A stretch of 64,000 nucleotides of DNA from the NCBI RefSeq assembly GCF_004634245.1, contig NZ_SJTF01000003.1, forward strand, positions 310,001 to 374,000, read 5' to 3'. Below the pieces are notes generated by a model. That model worked only from the letters and a program-made list of their open reading frames with translations. It did not search any database and had not been told where the DNA came from. The stretch comes from Flavobacterium foetidum (GTDB lineage Bacteria > Bacteroidota > Bacteroidia > Flavobacteriales > Flavobacteriaceae). The translations under genes were made by a program, and so were the position numbers. Of the stretch, positions 2,581-16,156 are shown in pieces. How positions within the stretch are numbered: the stretch's first letter is position 1; every line of letters begins with the position of its first letter.

Positions 2581-2752
2581 ACTAAAAATAAGTTTGCCAG
2601 TCATTGCAGAACCAGCTAAAGAAAATCTTATCTTGACAGAAGGTCCTGGAAACTATTACAGATATGCTGAATCGAGGTTTTACCAAAGTTCAAAGATTAT
2701 TTGCAGTGAATTTCATAAACCCATTTATCTAAAAAAATCCAATGATAAATAA
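2570..2752 (+). CDS. Small protein of unknown function in the grasp-with-spasm locus
   Basis: This 60-aa frame has no recognised domain. Its start overlaps the end of the ATP-grasp fragment by 11 bases and its end overlaps the SPASM gene by 11 bases, so translation is probably coupled to both. It has a single Cys (IICSEF), several Tyr and Lys, and no GG-type leader, so it does not look like a standard precursor peptide. A locus-specific accessory protein is possible, but the function is unknown. Confidence 0.5.
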   Translation: MKNKLKISLPVIAEPAKENLILTEGPGNYYRYAESRFYQSSKIICSEFHKPIYLKKSNDK

Positions 2753-3743
2753 AAAATTCAAACTATTTTCAAACTGTCTAACTGTAAAGGGAATAAATCG
2801 AGGAATAATAATTGACTTTCAGAGAGAAAATTATTTTGTAGTACCCAATCAAGTCATTGATTTTATAAGCGAGTATTCCGAAAAAAATGTATACGAGCTG
2901 TTCAAAGATTTTCAGAACGACAAGCCGATCCTAAAAAAATATATCCGTTTTTTTATTGAAAATGAATTAATCATTGTCAGTGATGATATAAGAAGGTTCC
3001 CGGCAATAAGCAATCATTTTGAGCGTCCATACAGTATTGACACAATAACTTTGGATCTAAATCTTAGCACCTCAATTTTAAAAGATTTCCTAGAACAAAG
3101 AATTGATAATTTGGGTGTATCTAGCTTAAAATTAATCTCTGGGGATTTCAATTTACAGAAATTGGCAGAAGTACTTAAAATTATTGACAAATCTAGAATT
3201 AAGTCTGTTGTCTTATATATAAAGCACAATAACGTATCAGAAAATGAGTTAGTGAAACTTAAAGATAAGTTTTCCAGAATAGCTGAAATTATTTTTTATG
3301 AAGCTGAAAAAGGAAATGATTCTAGAGAAAGTAATTTTATTTACGAGAGGAATTCTTTGGCAGAAATACTGGCTATGAAAATCAGTGATCAAGATGATTT
3401 TTTATTGAACATCGCAAATTTTAATGAATCATTAAAATACAGTTCCGCCTACAACAGAACAGTCTTTATTGATGATCTTGGAAATGTGCGGCGATACGTT
3501 GAAGATGAGTCAATTTTCGGCAATGTGGCTAAGGATGATTTAAGGGAAGTTGTCCTTAACAGCGAAATAATAAGTTTTTGGGAAATTAATAAGGATAAAA
3601 TAAAGATTTGCAGAGACTGTGAATTCAGATATATCTGCCCAGATGGAAGTATCCCTTTCAAAATCGACGAAGAAAAATATTATTCTTCTTCAAATAGCTG
3701 CAACTACAGTCCATATACTAATAAATGGAATGCCATGCAATAG
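2742..3743 (+). CDS. Grasp-with-spasm SPASM-domain peptide maturase
   Basis: This 333-aa protein is recognised from its C-terminus: CRDCEFRYICPD at about 290-300, followed by SCNYSPYTNKW, the Cys-rich SPASM segment of the grasp-with-spasm family. The N-terminal half resembles a radical-SAM barrel in length, but I see no CxxxCxxC cluster motif, so it probably does not cleave S-adenosylmethionine. In the family it works with an ATP-grasp enzyme on a ribosomal peptide. Here its partner is truncated and no precursor is visible in the remaining locus, so the pathway is probably dead or incomplete. Confidence 0.85.
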   Translation: MINKKFKLFSNCLTVKGINRGIIIDFQRENYFVVPNQVIDFISEYSEKNVYELFKDFQNDKPILKKYIRFFIENELIIVSDDIRRFPAISNHFERPYSIDTITLDLNLSTSILKDFLEQRIDNLGVSSLKLISGDFNLQKLAEVLKIIDKSRIKSVVLYIKHNNVSENELVKLKDKFSRIAEIIFYEAEKGNDSRESNFIYERNSLAEILAMKISDQDDFLLNIANFNESLKYSSAYNRTVFIDDLGNVRRYVEDESIFGNVAKDDLREVVLNSEIISFWEINKDKIKICRDCEFRYICPDGSIPFKIDEEKYYSSSNSCNYSPYTNKWNAMQ

Positions 3744-3825
3744 GATCTTAGCGGTAAAGGGAAAACTTCAAAATAATTTCAAGGCACATAATAATCAGGT
3801 ACTATATTTAAAACAACTACAAGTG

Positions 3826-5481
3826 ATGTCAAAAAAAAAACAAATCAATTTAATAAGGTACTATTTCTCTGCAGCTTGTTTTCTTGCACTGTTTGGATGT
3901 AAAACAGCGAACCAGGATATTACAAAACATAATTATGTGGTTGGAGAAAGCAATTATGGAGATTTGCTTTATAACGATCTAATCGATGTCTCAATCGACA
4001 TTTTAGGAAACGTGACTTATAATGATTTTTCAAAGTTAAGAAGCATCAAATTAAAAAAAGAAATCAGGGCCGTCAGAAATGTCTCCATCAAAAATCTGAT
4101 CGTCAGCTGCAAAGCGGATCAAAATTTTGAGATTTTTTATTTCTTCGAAAAAATAAAAAATCCAATCGATACAATCGTACATGAAAAGCTTGTGAAAAAT
4201 GACAGCATCAATAGGATTTTCGTTTTTGAAAAGCAAAAGGGAGCAAAAAAAATTATCTGCATTACGCGCGCATTGACCTATAGTGTAAATAATTTGAAAA
4301 GGGCTTCCGAAAACATAAAAAAAGTCTATTTAGACTCTACCAACCTCAATAAGCTGTCCTACATGAAAATGTTTAATCATTATACGCAGGAGCCAAATAA
4401 AAATTTTCTTCAAGGAAGAGAAAAAATAAAGACTGCTCCCATAAAGGATTCTAGAAAACTCATGATGAAAGAGCCATTGTATTTCACTCTCAATTCTTTC
4501 ATGAATGGCAACGAAGAATACGATTTATTGATCAAGGGCTATGAAAATGAGAAAAATCATTATGATGCAACAGTAGAAAGCTCCTTGTCAAAAAATGAAG
4601 TTAAGAAGAATGGTGATGTATACAATGAAATTGCCAAAATAGCTAGAGACAATCAGATAATCATACTCAATGAAGATCATTTTTATCCTAGGCATCGATT
4701 ATTTGCCATGCTGCTTTTGGATGTCTTAAAACAAAATGGATTTACAAGTATTTCCCTAGAAACATTTGTACCAAACGAAGAGGGCGATAGTACGATAGTT
4801 CCAAACTCTAATAATGGGTTTTATATTAAAGACCCCTATTTTGGCCATTTTATCAGAAAAGCAAATGCTATGGGTTTTAACCTTCTGGGACATGAAAATT
4901 ATGAGAGCAGCATAGATAGAGAAGCTGGACAGGCCAAGAACATCATGAAACTGCTGGAGAGAGATCCAAAAGCAAAAATCTTCATTTATGTAGGTCACGG
5001 CCATTTGGAAAAGGAAGGAAAAAGACGTGCCATGGCAAGTTATTTAAAAGAATATTCTAATATAGATCCGGTTACAATCAACCAGGAGACAGTAATGACC
5101 AAGACGAAAGAAGAATTGGTTTTACTTCCCAAATCCGTATTTGTGAAAGACACTTTAATGAAATCAAGCGCCGATTATTTTTTAGTAAATAACCTTTCGG
5201 CAAACCTAGAATCGGTCTATCCTAATGACGTTTTTAGAAAAGCTATTTTGAAAAACGAAAAATTTAGGTTTTTTAAAAATCAGGAACTATTAGTTGATGT
5301 TTTTCAACTGGAAGAGTATGATAAAACTAAGAATGCGGATTTATTAGTTCCAATCGAATCAATTCTTGCTGTTCCAAAAGGGGATGAAATCGAAATTAAT
5401 TTACCTGTTGGCAACTATTATGTATCAGTGAAATCAAATAACGGAGAGGTGTTTAAATTTGATGATTTTATTAATAAATAA
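3826..5481 (+). CDS. Large lipoprotein, possible Tiki/EreA/ChaN-like fold
   Basis: I chose ATG 3826 because it gives a lipoprotein signal (FLALFGCKTAN) and follows the SPASM gene without overlap. The 551-aa protein has an unrecognised N-terminal half. Around residues 270-420, IILNEDHFYPRHRLF, ISLETF and IYVGHGHLEKEG recall the acidic/His motifs of the Tiki superfamily (erythromycin esterase, ChaN, TraB). That assignment is tentative. It is probably anchored in the outer or inner membrane. Its place directly after the SPASM gene suggests a role in processing, binding or immunity for the peptide, but nothing in the sequence proves this. Confidence 0.6.
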   Translation: MSKKKQINLIRYYFSAACFLALFGCKTANQDITKHNYVVGESNYGDLLYNDLIDVSIDILGNVTYNDFSKLRSIKLKKEIRAVRNVSIKNLIVSCKADQNFEIFYFFEKIKNPIDTIVHEKLVKNDSINRIFVFEKQKGAKKIICITRALTYSVNNLKRASENIKKVYLDSTNLNKLSYMKMFNHYTQEPNKNFLQGREKIKTAPIKDSRKLMMKEPLYFTLNSFMNGNEEYDLLIKGYENEKNHYDATVESSLSKNEVKKNGDVYNEIAKIARDNQIIILNEDHFYPRHRLFAMLLLDVLKQNGFTSISLETFVPNEEGDSTIVPNSNNGFYIKDPYFGHFIRKANAMGFNLLGHENYESSIDREAGQAKNIMKLLERDPKAKIFIYVGHGHLEKEGKRRAMASYLKEYSNIDPVTINQETVMTKTKEELVLLPKSVFVKDTLMKSSADYFLVNNLSANLESVYPNDVFRKAILKNEKFRFFKNQELLVDVFQLEEYDKTKNADLLVPIESILAVPKGDEIEINLPVGNYYVSVKSNNGEVFKFDDFINK

Positions 5482-5824: not shown

Positions 5825-6691
5825 TCAAACCGACCTATTCATTTTATAATTCAGAGTCTTGTAATACCTATGCAAATGATCGTAAATAACAAGTTCATAC
5901 ATTCTCTGTCTTGAAGTATATTGCCTGTTGATCATCATGTGTATGTGGCTAGACAAAAAATCATTTAAAGGAAGCTCAATTTTGCCTATAATTTCAAGAG
6001 CCGTTTTTTCGATTTGTCGAGATTTTTCATCGACAATGAAAAAAAGATCTGAAAAGCCGCTTTGGCCTTGATTCGATTCTTTCAAAAAAACTTCTAATTT
6101 GGGATAAAATATGCGATAATTTTTATCCATTTCTTTTTTCTGAATTTTATCTATTTCAAATTCTTCTTTAAAGGTAATTTGAAGTTTATTCATTAATGCT
6201 GATTTTTCTAAATTTGACAGCTTGAACGAATTTAAGAAAGATTCTATCATTAAAAAACTAAAAAAAACAGGAGTTTCATTATCAGTAAAAGAAGTTTTTA
6301 TATTCAAATATTTTAAGATTATCCTGCTGTCTTGCCAGAAAAGGAATTCAGAATCATACATAGTTTCTTTACCATATCGCTCTATTTCTCTTTGATAAGT
6401 ATCTGTCTGAATTTTCCAAACTACATCTTCATCCATAAGTTCCTTAAAAACAGCATATAAACTTTTCACAAGCAAACTAATATCATCAAGATCATCAACT
6501 AAAAAACGAATTCGCAGGTGTTCTTCAGGGTCTCTATATCTAATAAAAAACCATTTTAGAATCTTTTTCTTTTTTTCTAAGTGAATTATAACAGGAGCTA
6601 GCTTTTCTACTAAAATGTAATCGGCTGTTTTCACGCCAGTATAAATTTTGTAATATAACCACTGACTGCCCAAACAAAAATTTCTTTGCAT
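5825..6691 (-). CDS. Lantibiotic dehydratase elimination domain (SpaB_C-like)
   Basis: This 288-aa protein matches the thiopeptide/lanthipeptide C-terminal dehydratase domain: WLYYKIYTG near the start, then FFIRYRDPEEHLRIRF, the family's most conserved strand. In LanB enzymes this domain eliminates glutamate from glutamylated Ser/Thr to give dehydroalanine or dehydrobutyrine. It is encoded apart from the glutamylation domain, and its ATG at 6691 lies one base after the stop of that gene, so translation is probably coupled. An earlier in-frame start at 6742 would overlap the upstream gene by 50 bases and is less likely. It is the last gene of the operon. Confidence 0.88.
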   Translation of the reverse strand: MQRNFCLGSQWLYYKIYTGVKTADYILVEKLAPVIIHLEKKKKILKWFFIRYRDPEEHLRIRFLVDDLDDISLLVKSLYAVFKELMDEDVVWKIQTDTYQREIERYGKETMYDSEFLFWQDSRIILKYLNIKTSFTDNETPVFFSFLMIESFLNSFKLSNLEKSALMNKLQITFKEEFEIDKIQKKEMDKNYRIFYPKLEVFLKESNQGQSGFSDLFFIVDEKSRQIEKTALEIIGKIELPLNDFLSSHIHMMINRQYTSRQRMYELVIYDHLHRYYKTLNYKMNRSV

Positions 6692-6692
6692 T

Positions 6693-8885
6693 TTATTCTT
6701 TGTAAAACGATAATATAAACTGGTTACAATAGCTATCCGCATTTTTATTTTTTACCACAGACTTTTTGGCAAACAAAAACTCTTCTAAGATGATTTCCTG
6801 CTTATTTTTAACTGAATTTAAGAATAAATCAACTCCAATTTCAGTTTCAAAATCAAACAAAAGTGTATTGTCATGATTTACCCAATTGACATAACGAGGA
6901 ATACTTCTCTGTGAGCGCCAATTTAAAAATTCTTCTGTCAGTTGTTTATTATTCATTTTAGAAAAACATGCAATTTCTTTCTTTTCTACAACCCAGAAAG
7001 ATTTTGATAAAATTGTATCATTATAAGCTACTCTTGGAAAAAATTTATAATGTTCTTTTAAAGCTCCCCAATCAAAAGAATAAATCGGTTTTATATCCTG
7101 AAATTGCAAGTCACATAAAAAATGATAAAGAGGTAATGAATTCTTAGAAAAGTTATGAGCATTTGACAAACATGGAATTATCCTTTTATTGTGTTTTTTT
7201 GAAAATAGTATTATGGTATCTTTTTCTATAGAAATCCATAAATCGTTTAAATTAATAGTACAATTTTCCGGCACTCCTGATTTTGCCAGGTAACTAATCT
7301 CATAATTCCGTAAAACAGGTCGACGTAAAATATTTCCTGTTCTGGATTCAGGAATATGGGCAACCTCCGCCATGATCTGATCGGCATAAAAAACTTCTTC
7401 TTTTTGTACAATCTCTCTAGTTAGCTTATCGATAGAAAGATTACCATTACAAAACCGTCCTAAGAGTTTCGCGGCACTTATATTTCCTGATGGTTCGATT
7501 ACAACTTTATCTTCATCAACAACCTCGCACATTACAGAAAATGTGACTGGCACACTGCTGAAATCACTATTGAAGTTAGGAAAATCTTTTTCAGTTAATG
7601 CTATTTCACTTTCTCCTTTTAATATGCACTCTTGCATTTTTTTCTGCAAGATGAAATCATAAGATGTCCAATATTCATTCTCAATCCCTTTAGGCCTAAC
7701 TAAAAGAAACTCTAATAGTTCGTGGCAGTCATTCATCGCGTGATTTTGAAGATAGCCAATTCCTATCTCTGTGTCCAGAACTGTTGTCAACGGCATCATT
7801 CTGTCTTCATATCTTTGGATAAATGCTTTTTTAAAATTTTCCTGTCTTTTAAATTTCTGCTTAATTTGAATACCGTTTAAAAACGCAATCGCACGAAGAA
7901 CTTTTTTTCGAACACTTTTGTCTAGGGTATTTGTGGACGTATTTAAATTTAAATCTGTTTGGAAAAGATATTTTTCATCAAAGTCAAGTCCGATTTGTTT
8001 AATATTGTTTTTAATCTCCTGATAGTTAGTTTCGGAAGGTACCAGTTTTTCATCTAAAGAACAAAGCTGTCTTAACGTCTTTTCTAATATCCGATATTCT
8101 TTCTCCAGTTCCGGAATCTCTTTCAAAACAGCAAATATACTGTTCCAATCGTTATTTCCCGTAACGGCTGCATCTAACTCGCTTACTAAAAATTGAAAAT
8201 CAATAAGCTTTAAGATATATTTTTGAGCTTCCTGTTTTTCATCCTCATCATCTGATAAAAATGCGACCATTTCCTCAATAGTCATTCCTTGCGGTACTGC
8301 ATTAAGCAATGCCACCAATACAGCAGACTTTCTTAATGCCGAAATGCTATGTTCCCGCTTCATCTCTATACTTTTATATTCGATATAGCGGTAAAAATCT
8401 CCAATTCTGTAAATGCTGTTATTTGGATAAAATTTTAAATGCGGCACTGTTTCTTTTTTTTTCGAAAATTCCTGAAGCAGCAGTATCCAAAATTGCATAT
8501 CAAATTGAGTAAAGCGTTTAAAGCTCTCCAAATCCTCCAGAATAATTCTCGTTTCGTCAGCTATTCTCCCCACAGAACAACCCGAGAAAAGGCCAAATGG
8601 TGTACATCTGGAAGACATCCTTGCTAAATACTTCAGAAATGTAAGTTCTAGCTTTTCTGCCTTTTTACCGGATAGGTTTGAATCTGATTTAGCCCATTTG
8701 TCCAATTCTTTTCTCAAATCTGGAGAAGCCAAGTTAATCGCCTCTCTTATCAATGGGTTTTGATAATGAAGTTTTGCTTTTTCAGCAGAATAATTTTCTG
8801 CTGTGTCAAGATATAGAGATAATGGAAATAAGGGCGTTCTTAATACATAATTCTCGAATGATGAAATCTTGCTATTGGATATCAT
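6693..8885 (-). CDS. Lantibiotic dehydratase N-terminal (glutamylation) protein
   Basis: This 730-aa protein belongs to the LanB N-terminal family, which uses glutamyl-tRNA to glutamylate Ser/Thr of a precursor peptide. Support comes from LRTPLFPLSLY at residues 15-25, the conserved block MSSRCTPFGLFSGCSVG near 90-107, and the following FDMQFWILLLQEF. Full LanB proteins are about 1000 aa with the elimination domain fused; here that domain is the next gene, as in the split dehydratases known from Bacteroidota (pinensin type). The start overlaps the subtilase stop by 14 bases. No LanC gene follows. Confidence 0.9.
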   Translation of the reverse strand: MISNSKISSFENYVLRTPLFPLSLYLDTAENYSAEKAKLHYQNPLIREAINLASPDLRKELDKWAKSDSNLSGKKAEKLELTFLKYLARMSSRCTPFGLFSGCSVGRIADETRIILEDLESFKRFTQFDMQFWILLLQEFSKKKETVPHLKFYPNNSIYRIGDFYRYIEYKSIEMKREHSISALRKSAVLVALLNAVPQGMTIEEMVAFLSDDEDEKQEAQKYILKLIDFQFLVSELDAAVTGNNDWNSIFAVLKEIPELEKEYRILEKTLRQLCSLDEKLVPSETNYQEIKNNIKQIGLDFDEKYLFQTDLNLNTSTNTLDKSVRKKVLRAIAFLNGIQIKQKFKRQENFKKAFIQRYEDRMMPLTTVLDTEIGIGYLQNHAMNDCHELLEFLLVRPKGIENEYWTSYDFILQKKMQECILKGESEIALTEKDFPNFNSDFSSVPVTFSVMCEVVDEDKVVIEPSGNISAAKLLGRFCNGNLSIDKLTREIVQKEEVFYADQIMAEVAHIPESRTGNILRRPVLRNYEISYLAKSGVPENCTINLNDLWISIEKDTIILFSKKHNKRIIPCLSNAHNFSKNSLPLYHFLCDLQFQDIKPIYSFDWGALKEHYKFFPRVAYNDTILSKSFWVVEKKEIACFSKMNNKQLTEEFLNWRSQRSIPRYVNWVNHDNTLLFDFETEIGVDLFLNSVKNKQEIILEEFLFAKKSVVKNKNADSYCNQFILSFYKE

Positions 8886-10554
8886 TTTTATTTCGGTTCA
8901 CTTTTTTGGCTAGGCTCATCGCATTGTATACATTTAGAACTTTACCTGATTTTGACAATTCTGAAAATGGCACTTTTTTGTCTTTTGTCCCAGGGACCAA
9001 TACTTCTAGATTATAAACTGTTCCTGAATCCAGAATAATTTGTTTCACTTGATGAACAGTAAGTTTAGGATAATAAGACCAGATTAATGCGGCAGTTCCC
9101 GAAACCATTGGAGCCGCTAATGAAGTCCCTGAATCAAATTTATAAGTATTACCGGATGCGGTGGTATAAATATCTTCTCCTGGAGCAAATAAATCGACAT
9201 TCTTTTTACCATAATTAGAAAAACGAGAAACAAATGTATTGTCAAGCCTATTTGATATTGAGCCAACGTTAATAAAATTATTGCAGATATCTTCAAATCC
9301 ATCAAAATTGTTATCACTCGGATAAACAGGATTTTCATCAACATTAAGAGATTCATTTCCAGCAGCGTGAACAATTAAAACATTGTTTTTTTCGGCATAG
9401 CGAAAAGCTTCAGAAACCCAATCCTGTTTTAACGAAAACTCCTTAATGAAAGACAAATTAATTACTTTTGCTCCATTGTCAACCGCATAGTAGACCGCCA
9501 TTGCGATATCTTTATCATGTTCATCTCCTGAATATGAAATCGTTAATGGCATAATTTTTACGTTATCTACAATTCCGTTAATTCCGACAGCATTATTTCT
9601 TTCGGCAACGATAATGCCCGATACTTTTGTATTATGATCCTGAAAAGACCTATGTCCTTTTTTAGAAATACTTATATACTTACTTCCATATCCTTTTTCG
9701 AGAACATTAGGATTATCTCCAATAAAACTTCTTTCATTAAAATCCAAATTCAAATTTTTGTTCACAATAGAGTCTGTCTGTATCTCAGTTTCGATAACAT
9801 CAGCTAGTGTCTTTTCATCTTGATCAAATCTAAACTTCATAAAACCAATCATCGCTCCTAGGTCTCGATCATCGTCTTCCCTTCGCTGACGAAAAGTCTT
9901 ATCATTAATTTTATGAATTTTATACAAACTGTCTAATTGTTCATATGTGTAATCTTCCTTAGGGAAATAACGTTTTAAGCTATCTTTGGCGATTGGAAAG
10001 ATTATCTTACTGTATTGCTGTGATTTTAGTTTGTTTTTATAATATTTTAATTGATTTTCGAGGCTTTTTTTTGCCCTCAAATATTCTTTATATGCACGCA
10101 TATTATCTTTAGAAATCTCAAAATCAGCTTTATTTTCAAACTTGCCTTGAAGTTCTCTTACCAATCTGACGTATTCAAAATTTCCCCAAACTACATAACT
10201 GTCGTTTTTTGCAGTAAAATTCCACCCTTGTATGTCATCTATATATCCATTTTGATCATCATCAAGATTGTTGTCAGGAATTTCCTTAGAGTTTAACCAA
10301 ATTTTATTTTTTAGATCTTCATGGTTTTTATCAATTTGAGTGTCTATTACTGCAACGATAATAGTCTTTTTTGCTTTGCTCCCGTTTTCACCGTACCATT
10401 TTTCTAATGAAATACCTGGTGTATTAGTAGAATTGTAGTCTTTTTGATACCAATTTTGTTCTAAATCTCCAGATTTTAAATTAACGGTTTCTCTTGATGA
10501 CTTACAGCTACACATAATAAGATAAGCAAAGCAAACAACATATATTTTTTTCAT
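8872..10554 (-). CDS. Subtilisin-family (S8) lipoprotein peptidase of the peptide operon
   Basis: This 560-aa protein starts with a signal ending in a lipobox (IMCSCKSS), so it is exported and lipid-anchored. The catalytic triad is visible: DTQIDKNHEDL (Asp), HNTKVSGI (His) and GTSLAAPMVSGTAALI (Ser), with oxyanion Asn in HAAGNESLN. A charged, helix-rich insertion of about 180 residues separates the Asp and His blocks. It lies 12 bases after the precursor gene, so it is probably the LanP-like protease that removes the leader after export. A general envelope protease is the alternative. Confidence 0.88.
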   Translation of the reverse strand: MKKIYVVCFAYLIMCSCKSSRETVNLKSGDLEQNWYQKDYNSTNTPGISLEKWYGENGSKAKKTIIVAVIDTQIDKNHEDLKNKIWLNSKEIPDNNLDDDQNGYIDDIQGWNFTAKNDSYVVWGNFEYVRLVRELQGKFENKADFEISKDNMRAYKEYLRAKKSLENQLKYYKNKLKSQQYSKIIFPIAKDSLKRYFPKEDYTYEQLDSLYKIHKINDKTFRQRREDDDRDLGAMIGFMKFRFDQDEKTLADVIETEIQTDSIVNKNLNLDFNERSFIGDNPNVLEKGYGSKYISISKKGHRSFQDHNTKVSGIIVAERNNAVGINGIVDNVKIMPLTISYSGDEHDKDIAMAVYYAVDNGAKVINLSFIKEFSLKQDWVSEAFRYAEKNNVLIVHAAGNESLNVDENPVYPSDNNFDGFEDICNNFINVGSISNRLDNTFVSRFSNYGKKNVDLFAPGEDIYTTASGNTYKFDSGTSLAAPMVSGTAALIWSYYPKLTVHQVKQIILDSGTVYNLEVLVPGTKDKKVPFSELSKSGKVLNVYNAMSLAKKVNRNKNDIQ

Positions 10555-10566
10555 TCTATTCTAATC

Positions 10567-10731
10567 TTAATGATCAACTCCTCCATTACAGTTTTTGCTA
10601 GTTGCCGTTCCTGTGTTTGGGTCATCTCCGCCCCCGCCCCCAACAATCAAATGCAGGCTTTTCAGTTTTGCAAAGCTCATTTTTTCCAAATCAAATTTTT
10701 TAGCCTCTTTTTTTTTCTTCTTACTTTTCAT
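10567..10731 (-). CDS. Lanthipeptide-type precursor peptide (54 aa)
   Basis: The leader (KKFDLEKMSFAKLKSLHLIV) has the alternating Leu/Lys pattern of Bacteroidota class I lanthipeptide precursors and ends in five Gly. The core DDPNTGTATSKNCNGGVDH has three Thr, one Ser and a single Cys, so at most one thioether ring is possible and the other residues may stay dehydrated. ATG 10731 was chosen over longer frames because AAAGGA lies just before it and a -7 box lies 25 bases upstream. It is the first gene of an operon with the protease and split dehydratase. Confidence 0.85.
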   Translation of the reverse strand: MKSKKKKKEAKKFDLEKMSFAKLKSLHLIVGGGGGDDPNTGTATSKNCNGGVDH

Positions 10732-10756
10732 ATTATCCTTTTTAAATGTTATGCCA

Positions 10757-10764
10757 CAAATATA
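10757..10764 (-). promoter_or_regulatory. -7 box of the precursor operon
   Basis: TATATTTG on the minus strand matches the Bacteroidota TAnnTTTG element, about 25 bases before the precursor ATG. No TTTG sits at the ideal upstream distance, so the promoter may need an activator. The AraC-type regulator encoded next door is the obvious candidate. Confidence 0.45.
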
Positions 10765-10864
10765 AATTTTGTTTGGCAAGATGATATTCAATAACAATTC
10801 TGTTTGTCGAAATTCCTGAATCCCGACATCAATAAAGCCGCAAAAAACCCTCATTACCAACACA

Positions 10865-12531
10865 TTAAACTTTACTGTTTTTCTCTAGCTGCTTAATATA
10901 ATAAGCTGGCTTAATGCCTGCTTTTTTGTAAAATGCAGTCGAAAACGATTCAGCATTATTAAAACCAAACTCGATAGATAACGCTTGAATAGTATATTTT
11001 CGTAGTTTATGATCTTCCTTTATGGATTTTACAGCATGTTCGATTCTTAAATCGTTGACATATTGCGTAAACGATTTTTCTTTGTAGGTATTTACGACTT
11101 TAGAGATGTATTTACTGTTAGTTTTAAAATTATCTGACACTGACTGGACCGTAATATTTGAAATCAGATAGCCTTTAGTTGTCTCAAAATGGCTCAACTT
11201 TTCTAAAATCTGTTTGACCAACTCTTCATTGATTCCAATGTTTTCTGTTTCAGGCTTTATGGTCTTGACTTCTTTCTTAATTTCTTTTTCACTATTAATC
11301 GGTTGTGACACTAATTTTTGAAATTGGGAGTATTGCCTCTTTTTTGTTCTATATTGATAATAACCAAAGCTTGTCGTAATCATAAGTAAGCAAAATAATA
11401 TTCCCATTTTCCAATAAGATATGGTTTTGTCATTTTTAAGGTCCTGTATCAGGTTTTCCTTTTCTAAAACTAAGTTAGGAGTATCATACTCGTTTTGCAG
11501 TTTTTTACTAAGCTCTTTATAATTCGACTGCAGCACACTGTCAATAGACATATATCGAGTAAGGTATCTGAGTTGCCTTTCTTTGTCGTTTTTCTTCTTA
11601 AAATAAGAAATCATAAGCAAATACCCGCTTGTAAACCCAGGAGTGATCTTTCCTCTTTTGCTGTAGATAGAATCTACTTTTATAAAATTTTCGACAGCCT
11701 TATCTTTTTTGCCTAATCCATAATATGCTTTCCCTAAATAATAATAGGAAGCCAGCATATTTTCTGAATTTTTATAGAAGACCACTTTCGGCAAAGCTTT
11801 ACTTATGCTGTCTATTGCCGCATTATACCTTTTCCTTTCTACCAAATTGGCCCCTTCATTTAATATAAAAAGCGCATTATATTCATAATCCTCGGTAAGT
11901 TTTGATTCCTCATAACCCAACTTATTGTAGTACGTTGCCGAATCCAACTGTTTTAGTGCTTTATATGCATCAGCTAGTCCAAACAAAACATCCTGATAGG
12001 CGTACGAGTACTTGGGATCTCTCACATCCTTTTCTTTGTAATAATCAAAGCATTCTCTATATAATTTGAGGGCCTCATTGATTTCTCCTAATTGTTCAGA
12101 TCTTAAAACCGCTATCGAATATTTTACTTTATAATAAAAGTCATTGTTATTCTTTTTAGCGGCATTTTCAGCCATCAGAAAGTTATCGGTAGCTTCTTTG
12201 TACTTAAACTGATACATTAGTTCGTAAGCCTTTCTCGAAAAAGCGTATGCCGGATACTTTGCATCGTTGAGACTTCTAGAATAATAAATCGTGCTATCCA
12301 GATAAATAATTGCTTTCTGTCCGCTGGACAGCAGCGCAAGCAAGTACCAGCCCCTCGCCTTTTCAAGAGAATTATTTTCTTTAGTGGCTTTCGCTAAATA
12401 AGCATCAGCATACAGCTGCTGTCTGCTTTGGCTCTTCTCGCTGCTTTTATAAAGCTCTTTCAACTTCTCATAAGAAAGATTGGTGAAATCTTGGTTTGAC
12501 CTCTGGGCGGCTACAAAAAAGGAAATAGCAT
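10865..12531 (-). pseudogene. TPR / AraC-type membrane regulator with shifted N-terminus
   Basis: An uninterrupted frame from TTG 12463 encodes 532 aa: TPR-like helices (about 1-320), a membrane segment near 350-370 (MGILFCLLMITTSFGYY) and a C-terminal AraC-type helix-turn-helix (ALSIEFGFNNAESFSTAF). In the same frame upstream, without a usable start codon, lies a signal-like stretch (FILNAISFFVAAQ). ATG 12531 or TTG 12549 would reach it only after a one-base shift at the A6 run 12515-12520 (T6 in the gene). So the gene is either frameshifted or carries a sequence error. It probably controls the peptide operon downstream. Confidence 0.75.
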
Positions 12532-12587
12532 TAAGAATAAATTCGTCAATATTCTAAATCGTGGCATATGGAACTTTTAATTTCTGA

Positions 12588-12821: not shown

Positions 12822-13022
12822 TTACAATTTGAGCATAGAAGCGATTTGAGCGGTTAAGTTCGAATCCGCTTCTGAATCAGATGAACCTTTAAAAGCAGGT
12901 TCATCATCTTCAAATTCAAGATGAAAGAAGCATTTATTCGTCTCGAAAGAGTAGCTTTCCAAAATTCCAATAATTTCTCTATTCTTTTTAGTCAAAATAG
13001 AATTTTTAACATGTTGAGATTT
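12822..13022 (-). pseudogene. C-terminal fragment of an unknown gene, cut by IS copy 2
   Basis: A minus-strand frame of 66 codons enters from the IS end at 13022 and stops at TAA 12824. It reads like real protein (KKNREIIGILESYSFETN, then an acidic HLEFEDDEPAF, ending ASMLKL). The 5' part lies nowhere in the window. I do not recognise the family. A mobilisation or conjugation protein would fit an island but is only a guess. Confidence 0.5.
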
Positions 13023-13794
13023 GATTCTGTCGCATCTGGCATGTAAATTCGAAAGAAATCAGAAACCCGGAAATTATGCAGCCAATTTACAAAATGATTT
13101 GAACATGCTTATTCCTGGCTTAAGCATCTGATTTTTTCTCAACATATGTACAACTTCTATTCCACTTAATGTTCGTCTGGCCGATTCAAAACTTTTAAAA
13201 CCCAGACCGTTCTGTATCCGCCATTTTATAAAACGATGATCCTGCTCAACAATATTGTTCAGATACTTACACTGCCTAATCTTTATATTCGAAAATGATC
13301 GTTTGTTGTAAACCCTTATTGCGCTGGTGTTAGAGCCACTTTTGTCTATATTTATTACCGTTGGCCGGCAATTATTCTTTATCGCTTTTATTAAAAATGA
13401 CTGTGCGCTCATTCTCTGTCTTCTTCTGGTCAAAAGAAAATCCACCGTATTACCACATTTATCAACAGCCCGATATAAATAACACCAAATACCTTTAACT
13501 TTTATGTAGGTTTCATCCATTCTCCAGCTCACTCCCACTCTGTTCTTTCGCTTTTTCATCTGAGATTCAATCATTGGGCTAAATTTAAACACTCAACGTT
13601 GAATCGTAGCATGATCAACTTGTATTCCACGCATTTTCATTATTTCCTCAACATCCCTGTAACTCAATGTAAATCGCAATTTGAAATAGACTGCCTGCAA
13701 AATAATGGCTTTGGGATAACAATGACCTTTGGTATTCATTTAATATTGTTTGAAGCTCGAAAGATAATAAGTTTCAAATAGATGCGACAAAGCC
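13023..13794 (-). mobile_element. IS6-family insertion sequence, copy 2 (772 bp)
   Basis: I see no base difference from copy 1 (1417-2188), it has the same orientation, and it is shifted by exactly 11606 bases. Flanks TGAGATTT and GAAAATAG show no target duplication, and they do not match the outer flanks of copy 1 either. The two copies bracket 10.8 kb carrying both peptide-modification loci, like an IS26-style pseudo-compound transposon. Confidence 0.9.
13074..13739 (-). pseudogene. IS6-family DDE transposase with internal stop, copy 2
   Basis: Same frame, same DDE motifs and same TGA (13595-13593) as copy 1. The shared lesion shows that the two copies descend from one already mutated element, moved in trans by an intact relative, by restart translation, or by homologous duplication. 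Confidence 0.88.
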
Positions 13795-14494: not shown

Positions 14495-14637
14495 AATAGT
14501 GCATTTTAACGCACTATTCAACAACAATAAAGCCACAGAATGAAAAAAGATGGCAAATAGTGCTTTATAATGCTCTTTTAAATGATATTTGAACAAAAAA
14601 CTATTATATTTACATAAAAAAGAGCTTTATAATGCAC
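14495..14637 (+). promoter_or_regulatory. hipB operators (three sites) and promoter
   Basis: Three sites share the pattern G[TA]GC-N8-GC[AT]C: 14499-14514 (GTGC..GCAC, inside a perfect 8-bp AATAGTGC/GCACTATT palindrome), 14560-14575 (GTGC..GCTC) and 14622-14637 (GAGC..GCAC). The last two have the same spacer TTTATAAT. The third covers the hipB start codon. TATATTTA at 14605-14612 between sites 2 and 3 may be the -7 box. The N8 spacing is that of the E. coli HipB operator, though the arms differ. Autorepression is likely. Confidence 0.7.
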
Positions 14638-14850
14638 TTTGAAGAGATTATTAAAATTATCAAAGATAGAAGAGACACCCTTCAGGTTACTCAAGAAACA
14701 CTGGCAGAATTGTCCGGGGTTGGTCTCCGCACGCTCAAGCAGTTTGAAAGTGGCAAAGGAAATCCGACTCTGCTTACCCTTTCTAAACTTGCTGACGTAC
14801 TTGGGCTTGAAATTACCCTTCAAGTAAAAAATATAAAACCATTTAAATGA
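14632..14850 (+). CDS. hipB: HipB-like antitoxin, XRE-type DNA-binding protein
   Basis: This 72-aa protein is almost entirely an XRE/Cro helix-turn-helix: TQETLAELSGVGLRTLKQFE with the following NPTLLTLSKLADVLGLEI. It should bind the palindromes at its own promoter and repress the operon while helping hold the kinase toxin inactive. The stop overlaps the next start (ATGA). It lacks the longer C-terminal tail of some HipB proteins. Confidence 0.88.
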   Translation: MHFEEIIKIIKDRRDTLQVTQETLAELSGVGLRTLKQFESGKGNPTLLTLSKLADVLGLEITLQVKNIKPFK

Positions 14851-15170
14851 GAAAAGCGGAAATTTTATACAAGGATTGTCCCGCCGGAATACTTACCCAG
14901 CATGATGACGGCAGTTTTACATTCCAATACCATAAGCATTGGATTGAAGACTTGAATGCACCTGCCATCAGCCTAACGCTTCCTAAATCTGACGCACCGT
15001 ATAAAGCCGATTTTCTTTTTCCTTTCTTCTACCATATGCTGCCAGAAGGGTCCAATAAACAAATTGTCTGCAGGTACAATAAAATTGACCGAGATGATTA
15101 CTTCGGCATTTTAATGACAACTGCAAAAAATGACAGCATTGGAGCTGTTAGAGTACTAAAAATAGAATAA
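14847..15170 (+). CDS. hipS: HipS-like protein (separate HipA N-terminal subdomain)
   Basis: This 107-aa protein corresponds to the N-subdomain 1 of HipA, with LTLPKSDAPYKADFLFPFF and MLPEGSNKQIVCR, normally fused to the kinase. In the E. coli O127 HipBST system this separate piece (HipS) is the antitoxin that blocks the kinase HipT. The gene order here (DNA-binding protein, small domain, kinase) is the same. It overlaps the preceding gene by 4 bases and ends 2 bases before the kinase. That it acts as antitoxin is inferred from the order and domain split. Confidence 0.82.
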   Translation: MRKAEILYKDCPAGILTQHDDGSFTFQYHKHWIEDLNAPAISLTLPKSDAPYKADFLFPFFYHMLPEGSNKQIVCRYNKIDRDDYFGILMTTAKNDSIGAVRVLKIE

Positions 15171-15172
15171 GG

Positions 15173-16156
15173 ATGAGCTTACCTGAAATACATTTTTGCC
15201 CAGGCACACTGGCACCAGAATTTGACACTTACAGCAGAACTGCTTTAAACAGAGTTTTCAACGGTAGAAAAGTATCTCATATTCTCCCATATTCATCTCC
15301 CGCCTCTAATGTAGAAATGGACAAACTCTTCGAAGAAAACCGCATGAATATTTCTATTTCAGGCGTACAGGAGAAATTTTCAGTACTGCTTGATAAAAAT
15401 AAATTAAGGCTAATCTCCGAGGGAGAAAAAGGAACCTACATTCTAAAACCCATTCCAAATGCAGGTAGGATTCCTCATGAGATGCCGGCCAATGAGCACG
15501 TCACCATGCAGATAGCAAGACAGGTATACGGAATTGAAACAGCCGAGAACGCACTTATTTTTTTTAGTGACGGAAGCCCCGCTTATATTACCAAACGCTT
15601 TGACGTACAGGAAGACGGATCCAAATTGGCTCAGGACGATTTTGCTTCACTTGCCCAAAGAACACCTCAGACACATGGAGAAAACTACAAATATCAGGGA
15701 AATTATCTTGAAATTTTTCAACTCATGCAACAGTATCTTCCCGTATATAGAATCGAGGCACCAAAACTTTTGAAGATACTTATGTTTAATTATCTGTTTT
15801 CTAACGGAGATGCACACTTTAAAAACTTCTCCCTGCTCGAAACCCCAATGGGAGACTTTCGTCTCAGCCCTGCATATGACCTCTTGAACAGCAGAATTCA
15901 TATTGAAGACAAACCTTTTGCCTTAGAAGAAGGACTGCTGCCGAGGAAGTGGTCACAAGGCAGTATCAAAAGCCAATTTTTTAAACTTTCGCAAGAAGCC
16001 CAGATAGAGGAAAAAACATTTAATGTTCTGTTTGATTCCATGGCTTCACAGTCAGAAAAAGTATATCGGCTTATTGAAGCGTCCTATCTTGAAAACAGAA
16101 CTAAAAGAAATTACCTACAGTCTTATCAAGGGCGTTTAAAGCAATTTTTAAAATAG
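15173..16156 (+). CDS. hipT: HipT-like serine/threonine kinase toxin
   Basis: This 327-aa protein is a HipA-family kinase without the N-terminal subdomain. The Gly-rich loop carries ISISGVQEKFSVL, with two Ser as in the autophosphorylated SxS motif of HipT. YILKP holds the ATP-binding Lys, SNGDAHFKNFSL is the catalytic loop (Asp, Asn) and SPAYDLLNS holds the metal-binding Asp. All key residues are present, so it should be active. HipA kinases phosphorylate glutamyl-tRNA synthetase and HipT tryptophanyl-tRNA synthetase; the target here is unknown. AAGG precedes its start closely. Confidence 0.88.
   Translation: MSLPEIHFCPGTLAPEFDTYSRTALNRVFNGRKVSHILPYSSPASNVEMDKLFEENRMNISISGVQEKFSVLLDKNKLRLISEGEKGTYILKPIPNAGRIPHEMPANEHVTMQIARQVYGIETAENALIFFSDGSPAYITKRFDVQEDGSKLAQDDFASLAQRTPQTHGENYKYQGNYLEIFQLMQQYLPVYRIEAPKLLKILMFNYLFSNGDAHFKNFSLLETPMGDFRLSPAYDLLNSRIHIEDKPFALEEGLLPRKWSQGSIKSQFFKLSQEAQIEEKTFNVLFDSMASQSEKVYRLIEASYLENRTKRNYLQSYQGRLKQFLK

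Follow-up and report, generated by a model that had tools for sequence, protein, structure and literature searches.

The question raised by this locus is what kind of product is made by an operon that encodes a lanthipeptide-type dehydratase and a precursor with a single Cys, with no cyclase gene among its members. In the analysed stretch of 64,000 nucleotides of Flavobacterium foetidum DNA (hereafter the window) the locus is a minus-strand operon encoding a precursor of 54 aa, a lipoprotein protease of the S8 family and a dehydratase of the LanB type divided over two proteins, with 12 bases between the precursor and S8 genes and overlaps between the subsequent genes (Table 1). This layout had been proposed by a sequence-only reading; the precursor with its five Gly and single-Cys core was confirmed, and the S8 protease followed by a split dehydratase was borne out by profile matches, the glutamylation and elimination domains of a class I LanB both being present, split across two genes. 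LanB-C most likely starts at Met18 of its listed open reading frame. From a Lys-rich start the precursor runs through KKFDLEKMSFAKLKSLHLIVGG into the core GGGDDPNTGTATSKNCNGGVDH, the leader containing an FDLE box and a VGG double-glycine and the core the residues S-K-N-C. The FNLD box is a leader feature of the nisin type, and the F-x-L-[DE] leader box of the window precursor, together with a core of Ser/Thr plus Cys, is that of a lanthipeptide precursor, 34 of the 40 collected cores having a Cys. A comparison of the precursor with library profiles, which the sequence-only reading had recommended, found nothing in either Pfam or NCBIfam up to E = 1; NCBIfam was likewise without a match to two other precursors up to E = 10.

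The operon is flanked on both sides by IS copies (1409-1708 and 13015-13314) that are 99% alike, alongside which a DDE transposase fragment is present. Between these copies no LanC was detected with a local LanC model, and neither an ABC transporter nor an obvious immunity gene was seen, as had been stated before. The IS-bounded stretch also encodes a protein at 2742-3743 with a sub-threshold SPASM match (19.1 bits, cut-off 21.5), which has no counterpart among the gene families widely shared by cassette loci, and a protein at 3619-5481 with a sub-threshold ChaN/Tiki match. At 14632-16156 of the window an HTH gene, a short ORF and a HipA-like gene likely constitute a HipBA-type toxin-antitoxin set.

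Table 1. Features of the operon and its regulatory region, in window positions.
Feature	Position	Strand	Remarks
Regulator signal-peptide start (ATG 12567)	12515..12567	-	out of frame with the body
TPR/AraC-HTH regulator body	10865..12463	-	PF12833 E 3.9e-10; TPR_12 8e-07, slightly below its cut-off
Putative palindromic operator	10807..10826	-	TCGGGATTCAGGAATTTCGA; palindrome match before the window precursor
Putative Bacteroidota -7 promoter element	10757..10764	-	TATATTTG; TAnnTTTG box
Precursor peptide gene	10567..10731	-	MKSKKKKKEAKKFDLEKMSFAKLKSLHLIVGGGGGDDPNTGTATSKNCNGGVDH; 54 aa with five Gly and a single Cys
S8 (subtilisin) protease, predicted lipoprotein	8872..10554	-	PF00082 E 1.5e-45
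LanB-N, glutamylation half (Lant_dehydr_N)	6693..8885	-	PF04738 E 5.8e-131
LanB-C, elimination half (Lant_dehydr_C)	5825..6691 (listed ORF 5825-6742)	-	PF14028 E 1.9e-59; TIGR03891 1.6e-56

The gene set had been regarded as minimal and unusual. A comparison of 40 loci showed instead a conserved family that has a regulator and an operator of its own, the loci comprising the window, a paralogue on contig C26 of the same genome and 38 loci from other genomes (L040 was left out as a duplicate of the L024 record). A regulator with TPR and AraC-type HTH parts, a gene missing from the sequence-only reading, belongs to the cassette. Clustering of ORFs of at least 80 aa recovered this regulator, LanB-N and LanB-C in 40/40 loci and S8 in 38/40, and the cassette order of regulator, precursor(s), S8 lipoprotease, LanB-N and LanB-C is repeated in dozens of Flavobacterium loci. 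The next families were an ABC exporter cluster (16/40) and HlyD (11/40), counted in flanks of differing length and checked by profile for L024 only; every other gene family was confined to at most 7 of the 40 loci. Reading frames, key residues, gene order and the operator with its spacing are kept in the 40 loci down to 44% LanB-N identity, and the C26 cassette, whose LanB-N is 80% identical to that of the window (blastp), has intact reading frames. In a tree of 54 LanB-N rows the 40 cassette rows form one clade (100/100), and this clade together with L028, L029, L099 and L101, which have no LanC within the stretch examined, is split from nine LanC-adjacent rows (98/93). A third LanB pair of the F. 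foetidum genome (contig C6, L022:6938-11476) stands with a GG peptide and a gene resembling alcohol dehydrogenase; in the tree it is placed, on a long branch, on the side of the LanC-adjacent rows, though this genome is without LanC.

Variants of the cassette were also encountered. Two or three S8 genes stand in tandem in L069, L070, L073, L078, L081, L086, L087 and L095, the precursor of L078 is degenerate and the S8 of L027 is split. Precursor and S8 genes occur with no LanB adjoining in L118 (6884-13788; regulator, precursor and three S8 genes), whose genome G301 gave no LanB match at E up to 1e-100, and in L120 (5235-8753; precursor and two S8 genes), whose genome G338 has a complete cassette elsewhere (L095). 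Proteins that by eye resemble S9 prolyl oligopeptidases occupy the expected place of S8 in L028 (9829-12012), L099 (15147-17312) and L030 (15757-17886), where they adjoin a regulator and a GG precursor.

According to the accessible part of a mutagenesis study of NisB, residues R14, Y80, R83, R87 and H961 matter, and T89 more weakly (PMC4341554). R16, Y86, R89, R93 and T95 of LanB-N are invariant in 40/40 cassette rows, the last four keeping the NisB spacing; LanB-N aligns with 9g04 and 5ehk, and its probable residue-for-residue match to NisB is drawn from spacing, not from alignment to NisB. For LanB-C, R77, R79, E119, R122 and H268 were present in at least 53 of the 54 rows, and the profile was aligned to NisB 4wd9 across the HLRxR, ExxRYG and HxxxNR stretches. 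The residues D71, H307, N400 and S478 are all present in the S8 protein of the window, and among 38 cassette rows D and H are found in 37 (the fragment L027 stops short of both) and N and S in 38. The notion that S8 is a cassette-only family was rejected, as relatives about 40-46% identical are found in 151/395 genomes of the order (E up to 1e-60).

The sequence-only reading had also advised a search for LanC elsewhere in the genome, which returned 0 PF05147 matches in 5.1 Mb (28 contigs, completeness 100), and in this respect the window system departs from a class I lanthipeptide system, which has a LanC cyclase. The same search found LanC in 51/398 genomes of the genus sample. A local model trained on eight local LanCs detected LanC in 13 of the 18 LanB loci outside the cassette set, as 13 ORFs that include the eight training rows; it had no match in 39 cassette loci, in the 64 kb window or in the remaining LanB loci L022, L028, L029, L099 and L101. 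Cassette genomes were defined as those with a LanB-N of the window's kind (at least 45% identity), which includes G317 (partial match) and G413 (contig edge) and leaves out G172, a LanC-bearing genome of completeness 76 whose match is partial, at 46%, and has two stop codons. Among these 40 genomes, 25 had no LanC match and 15 had one, located on another contig in 9, at 0.55 to 1.7 Mb in 3 and at 11, 21 and 28 kb in 3, distances that stem from multi-contig drafts and may differ from the true ones. LanC is commoner in cassette genomes (15/40) than in the rest (36/358), which counts against a cyclase-free reading; perhaps both are simply commoner in large genomes, and in the LanC-bearing cassette genomes LanC could act in trans.

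The cores themselves carry a pattern that bears on ring formation. Forty precursors were gathered after a truncated one in L026 and the degenerate one in L078 had been dropped, and none was found in L080. One Cys is present in 29 cores, two in 5 and none in 6, and six cores end in Cys. Ser/Thr stands at exactly -3 of 37 of the 39 core Cys, as compared to a mean of 7.6 and a maximum of 17 in 10,000 shuffles of the cores; kinship between sequences is uncorrected in the shuffle and count tests, so related rows are not independent. At other offsets Ser/Thr was counted at -4 in 32 cases and at -1, -2, -5 and -6 in 1, 4, 1 and 9. The pair of residues between Ser/Thr and Cys takes 30 forms in the 37 cases, and two further precursors outside the count fit the motif (L118, SSDKC; L120, STAFC). 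Two fixed residues enclosing a freely varying spacer are the trace to be expected of a ring and may be read as a one-ring signature, although a ring from the Ser/Thr at -4 may also form, since most cores have Ser/Thr there too. It is this [ST]xxC motif that suggests a product containing lanthionine or methyllanthionine. The Cys-free cores (L026a, L075, L077, L081, L085 and L088) lie on several branches of the LanB tree and retain LanB, some beside Cys-bearing sisters (L075 with L025 and, weakly supported, L081 with L076). Further afield, the GG candidate peptides of the LanC-less loci L029 and L099 are Cys-free, and the GG peptide of L028, LanC-less and outside the cassette clade, has a Cys without Ser/Thr at -3. 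As Cys-free cores in several branches keep LanB, dehydration looks general and the ring usual yet dispensable.

Regulation of the cassette appears to centre on one palindrome. The sequence TCGAAATTCNNGAATTTCGA (that is, TCGAAATTC-NN-GAATTTCGA) precedes 39/40 precursors with 14 to 18 of 18 letters matched, the one exception being the second of two tandem precursors, and base shuffles reached at least 14 letters in 11/2,000. In the window TATATTTG lies 62 bp after the palindrome start and 33 bp ahead of the precursor ATG, and conforms to TAnnTTTG, which we take to be the Bacteroidota -7 promoter consensus. Of the 37 upstream regions with a TAnnTTTG box, 34 have it 62-64 bp from the palindrome, and the others, at 53, 53 and 74, differ by about one helical turn less or more. 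With at most two mismatches the palindrome was also found before 29/38 regulator genes (two more loci being cut too short), as compared to 0/40 LanB-N genes and 9/217 other ORFs. In the 5.1 Mb F. foetidum genome it occurs at this stringency in four places, before both precursors, the C26 regulator and a C26 peptide array, and its reversed control in none. This distribution suggests autoregulation; the regulator would bind the palindrome, and the peptide may be its ligand. The regulator is predicted to be membrane-anchored, with a signal peptide, one transmembrane helix and a TPR part outside the inner membrane, a strongly hydrophobic start being present in 30/40 rows and, in 38/40, a hydrophobic segment around residue 385, or 348 in the shorter reading of the window copy. 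An AlphaFold model of the L037 regulator displays a TPR superhelix, a long helix and an HTH; it is a modest model (mean pLDDT 63.8, the TPR part mostly 70-90, a weak stretch near 181-240), and Foldseek retrieved generic TPR superhelices (LGN and others), so that model and search would indicate a fold and not a ligand.

The window copy of the regulator is frameshifted: its start and body no longer share a frame once a T run near 12515-12520 is passed, and a sequencing error in this run may be the cause. Its own palindrome is missing, the best match in the 300 bases upstream having 6 mismatches, and the IS repeat starts about 450 bases beyond this upstream region. Because of the frameshift, expression of the window cassette may depend on the intact C26 paralogue.

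A GG at the leader end is nearly invariant among the precursors, and because the leader ends in a double glycine, a cut by a C39 protease during export and one by S8 are equally likely. In L024 profiles identified a C39 ABC gene and HlyD downstream of the cassette, similar genes (by similarity) adjoin others, and the palindrome recurs in the stretch preceding the L024 exporter; in L074, L079 and L081 it lies between 115 and about 900 bases ahead of the first exporter gene or of the exporter block. This exporter type (at least 81% identity) is found in 23/40 cassette genomes versus 22/358 others, a count that is uncorrected for relatedness and leaves out six genomes with 54-59% matches. A C39-type exporter thus seems to belong to the system in relatives. 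The F. foetidum genome lacks the cassette-linked exporter type at this identity; it has one full C39 ABC/HlyD pair on contig C23, beside a weak second C39 domain fused to VKOR, and this pair may export the window peptide. Next to the C26 paralogue lies a second peptide system (L128:1543-12168, also in L129) with arrays of 42-47 aa peptides that have EELExRxE leaders and the cassette palindrome upstream. It includes a squalene-cyclase-like/polyprenyl-synthase-like protein of 628-669 aa (two 295-aa ORFs in the interrupted first copy of L128), a metalloprotease resembling the daptide HExxH protein (NF041824, 114.6 bits, cut-off 300) and a MauE/thioredoxin protein.

Taken together, we consider it probable, with some reserve, that the cassette represents a LanC-less variant of the class I lanthipeptide type, the product being a small dehydrated, mostly one-ring and possibly self-sensed peptide that would bear no more than one or two sulfur bridges, a chemistry deduced throughout from sequence. 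The split LanB would glutamylate core Ser/Thr and eliminate to Dha/Dhb, and where a Cys is present the Ser/Thr at -3 would serve as acceptor for a (methyl)lanthionine ring of four residues. This ring would close in the absence of LanC, be it spontaneously, inside the LanB complex or through an as yet unrecognised enzyme. The peptide would leave through a C39-type double-glycine exporter, encoded beside the cassette in some relatives and elsewhere in the F. foetidum genome, and the S8 lipoprotein would trim it on the outer side of the inner membrane. A periplasmic ligand, perhaps the peptide itself, would be sensed by the membrane-anchored TPR/AraC protein, which would activate precursor and regulator through the palindrome. 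A fuller version is more tentative and rather doubtful as a whole, namely that the one-ring dehydrated peptide, made without a cyclase, is a self-sensing signal which S8 releases into the periplasm or across it and whose receptor is a one-component TPR/AraC protein spanning the membrane; via the one palindrome this receptor would drive its own operon and, in the F. foetidum genome, the second peptide system. Counted against the LanC-less variant are the two loci, L118 and L120, in which precursor and S8 genes have no LanB adjoining, the Cys-free cores, the L028 Cys that lacks Ser/Thr at -3, and the window regulator with its frameshift and missing palindrome.

Three other readings overlap with this one and with each other, and the likelihoods attached to the four are rounded. 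The sequence-only reading had left the choice between a linear peptide and one with a single spontaneous ring. That LanB makes Dha/Dhb only, the Cys being free or otherwise used, for instance as an attachment point, and no lanthionine being formed, would agree with the 25/40 cassette genomes without a LanC match, with the 6/40 Cys-free cores that keep LanB and with the Cys-free candidate precursors of the LanC-less relatives L029 and L099; it leaves unexplained why 37/39 Cys lie exactly three residues after a Ser/Thr with the spacer varying freely, and we regard it as unlikely. Because the [ST]xxC motif is conserved far above chance, a single ring is preferred to a product that is purely linear, and the ring is not universal, as the 6/40 cores without Cys belong to separate branches of the LanB tree. 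It is quite unlikely, in our estimation, that the product is an ordinary class I lanthipeptide whose cyclase comes from a remote or unrecognised gene, such as a very divergent LanC or a class V-like or kinase-fold enzyme. LanC is present in 15/40 cassette genomes, non-LanC-like class V enzymes are described in the accessible part of one publication (PMC13060382), and a kinase-fold cyclase is on record (PMC12291118); against this stand the lack of any family beyond cassette and exporter parts in more than 7/40 loci and of any PF05147 match in the F. foetidum genome. A decaying remnant, which lost LanC and exporter and is no longer productive, would accommodate the frameshifted regulator, the IS copies on both sides with the DDE transposase fragment, the degenerate precursor of L078 and the split S8 of L027. 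As a main reading it was set aside owing to the conservation of frames, key residues, gene order and operator with its spacing across 40 loci (LanB-N identity down to 44%), and it is highly improbable.

For the LanC-less, mostly one-ring reading, if a real product is made, LanC would not be the rule for LanB-type peptides. If this reading is true, the cores, having two, one or no Cys, would also form a natural set for studying whether a ring of four residues can close unaided, and Flavobacterium would gain a candidate circuit for signalling by a modified peptide, with its operator defined. Parts of the system are already known, namely split LanB, GG leaders and LanB without nearby LanC in Bacteroidetes. 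In the accessible text of the respective sources, Bacteroidetes genomes were noted in 2010 to have several LanBs, few of them near LanC (PMC3091789), LanC without LanB was found in Bacteroidales (PMC10352776), Flavobacterium-specific RiPP cluster families were reported (PMC10734526), and antiSMASH indicated a class I lanthipeptide cluster, its locus unspecified, in a strain of F. hungaricum (PMC9076710) that has a window-type cassette (L038) and, judged from matching coordinates, LanC as well (G114). A large lanthipeptide survey was, in its accessible part, seeded on LanC (PMC7268733), and LanC-less sets would for this reason have been passed over by design. In the literature searched, mostly outside subscription papers, no recognised description of the cassette, its [ST]xxC series or its operator was encountered.

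Among known systems the pinensins of Chitinophaga, Bacteroidota class I peptides with a split LanB, resemble the window system in that, in the accessible parts of the sources, glutamylation and elimination are on separate proteins (PMC7268733) and Cys is C-terminal to Ser/Thr (PMC13060382). The same source, as far as accessible, has pinensins use LanC (PMC13060382), whereas the window system has none in cassette or genome, and the pinensin-type combination of LanC with split LanB is not found here. Unlike the pinensins, the window-type cassette has mostly one Cys or none, an S8 lipoprotein and a TPR/AraC regulator. A LanC-linked LanB clade within Flavobacterium (L031, L100, L102-L106, L108) shares a split LanB that is 34-38% identical, GG leader peptides and, near some members (L031, L105, L108), C39/HlyD genes, but differs in having LanC nearby, other leaders and at least two Cys in the candidate precursor of each of its eight loci. 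Thiopeptides, goadsporin and dehydrazoles likewise combine LanB-type dehydration with peptides that are not closed by LanC. Their pathways use azole-forming enzymes; ORF clustering of the 40 cassette loci gave no additional conserved family, with none other than cassette and exporter genes in over 7 loci. Deepflavo and deepginsen, reportedly DeepRiPP peptides of Merwin in 2020, may be related to the window cassette. They are listed from Flavobacterium and Chitinophaga strains in the accessible part of one source (PMC8358304). The regulator resembles the RRNPP peptide-pheromone receptors in joining a TPR superhelix to an HTH. RRNPP regulators have a cytoplasmic TPR domain and an N-terminal HTH, whereas the window-type regulator stands apart with its C-terminal AraC-type HTH and its predicted signal peptide and transmembrane helix.
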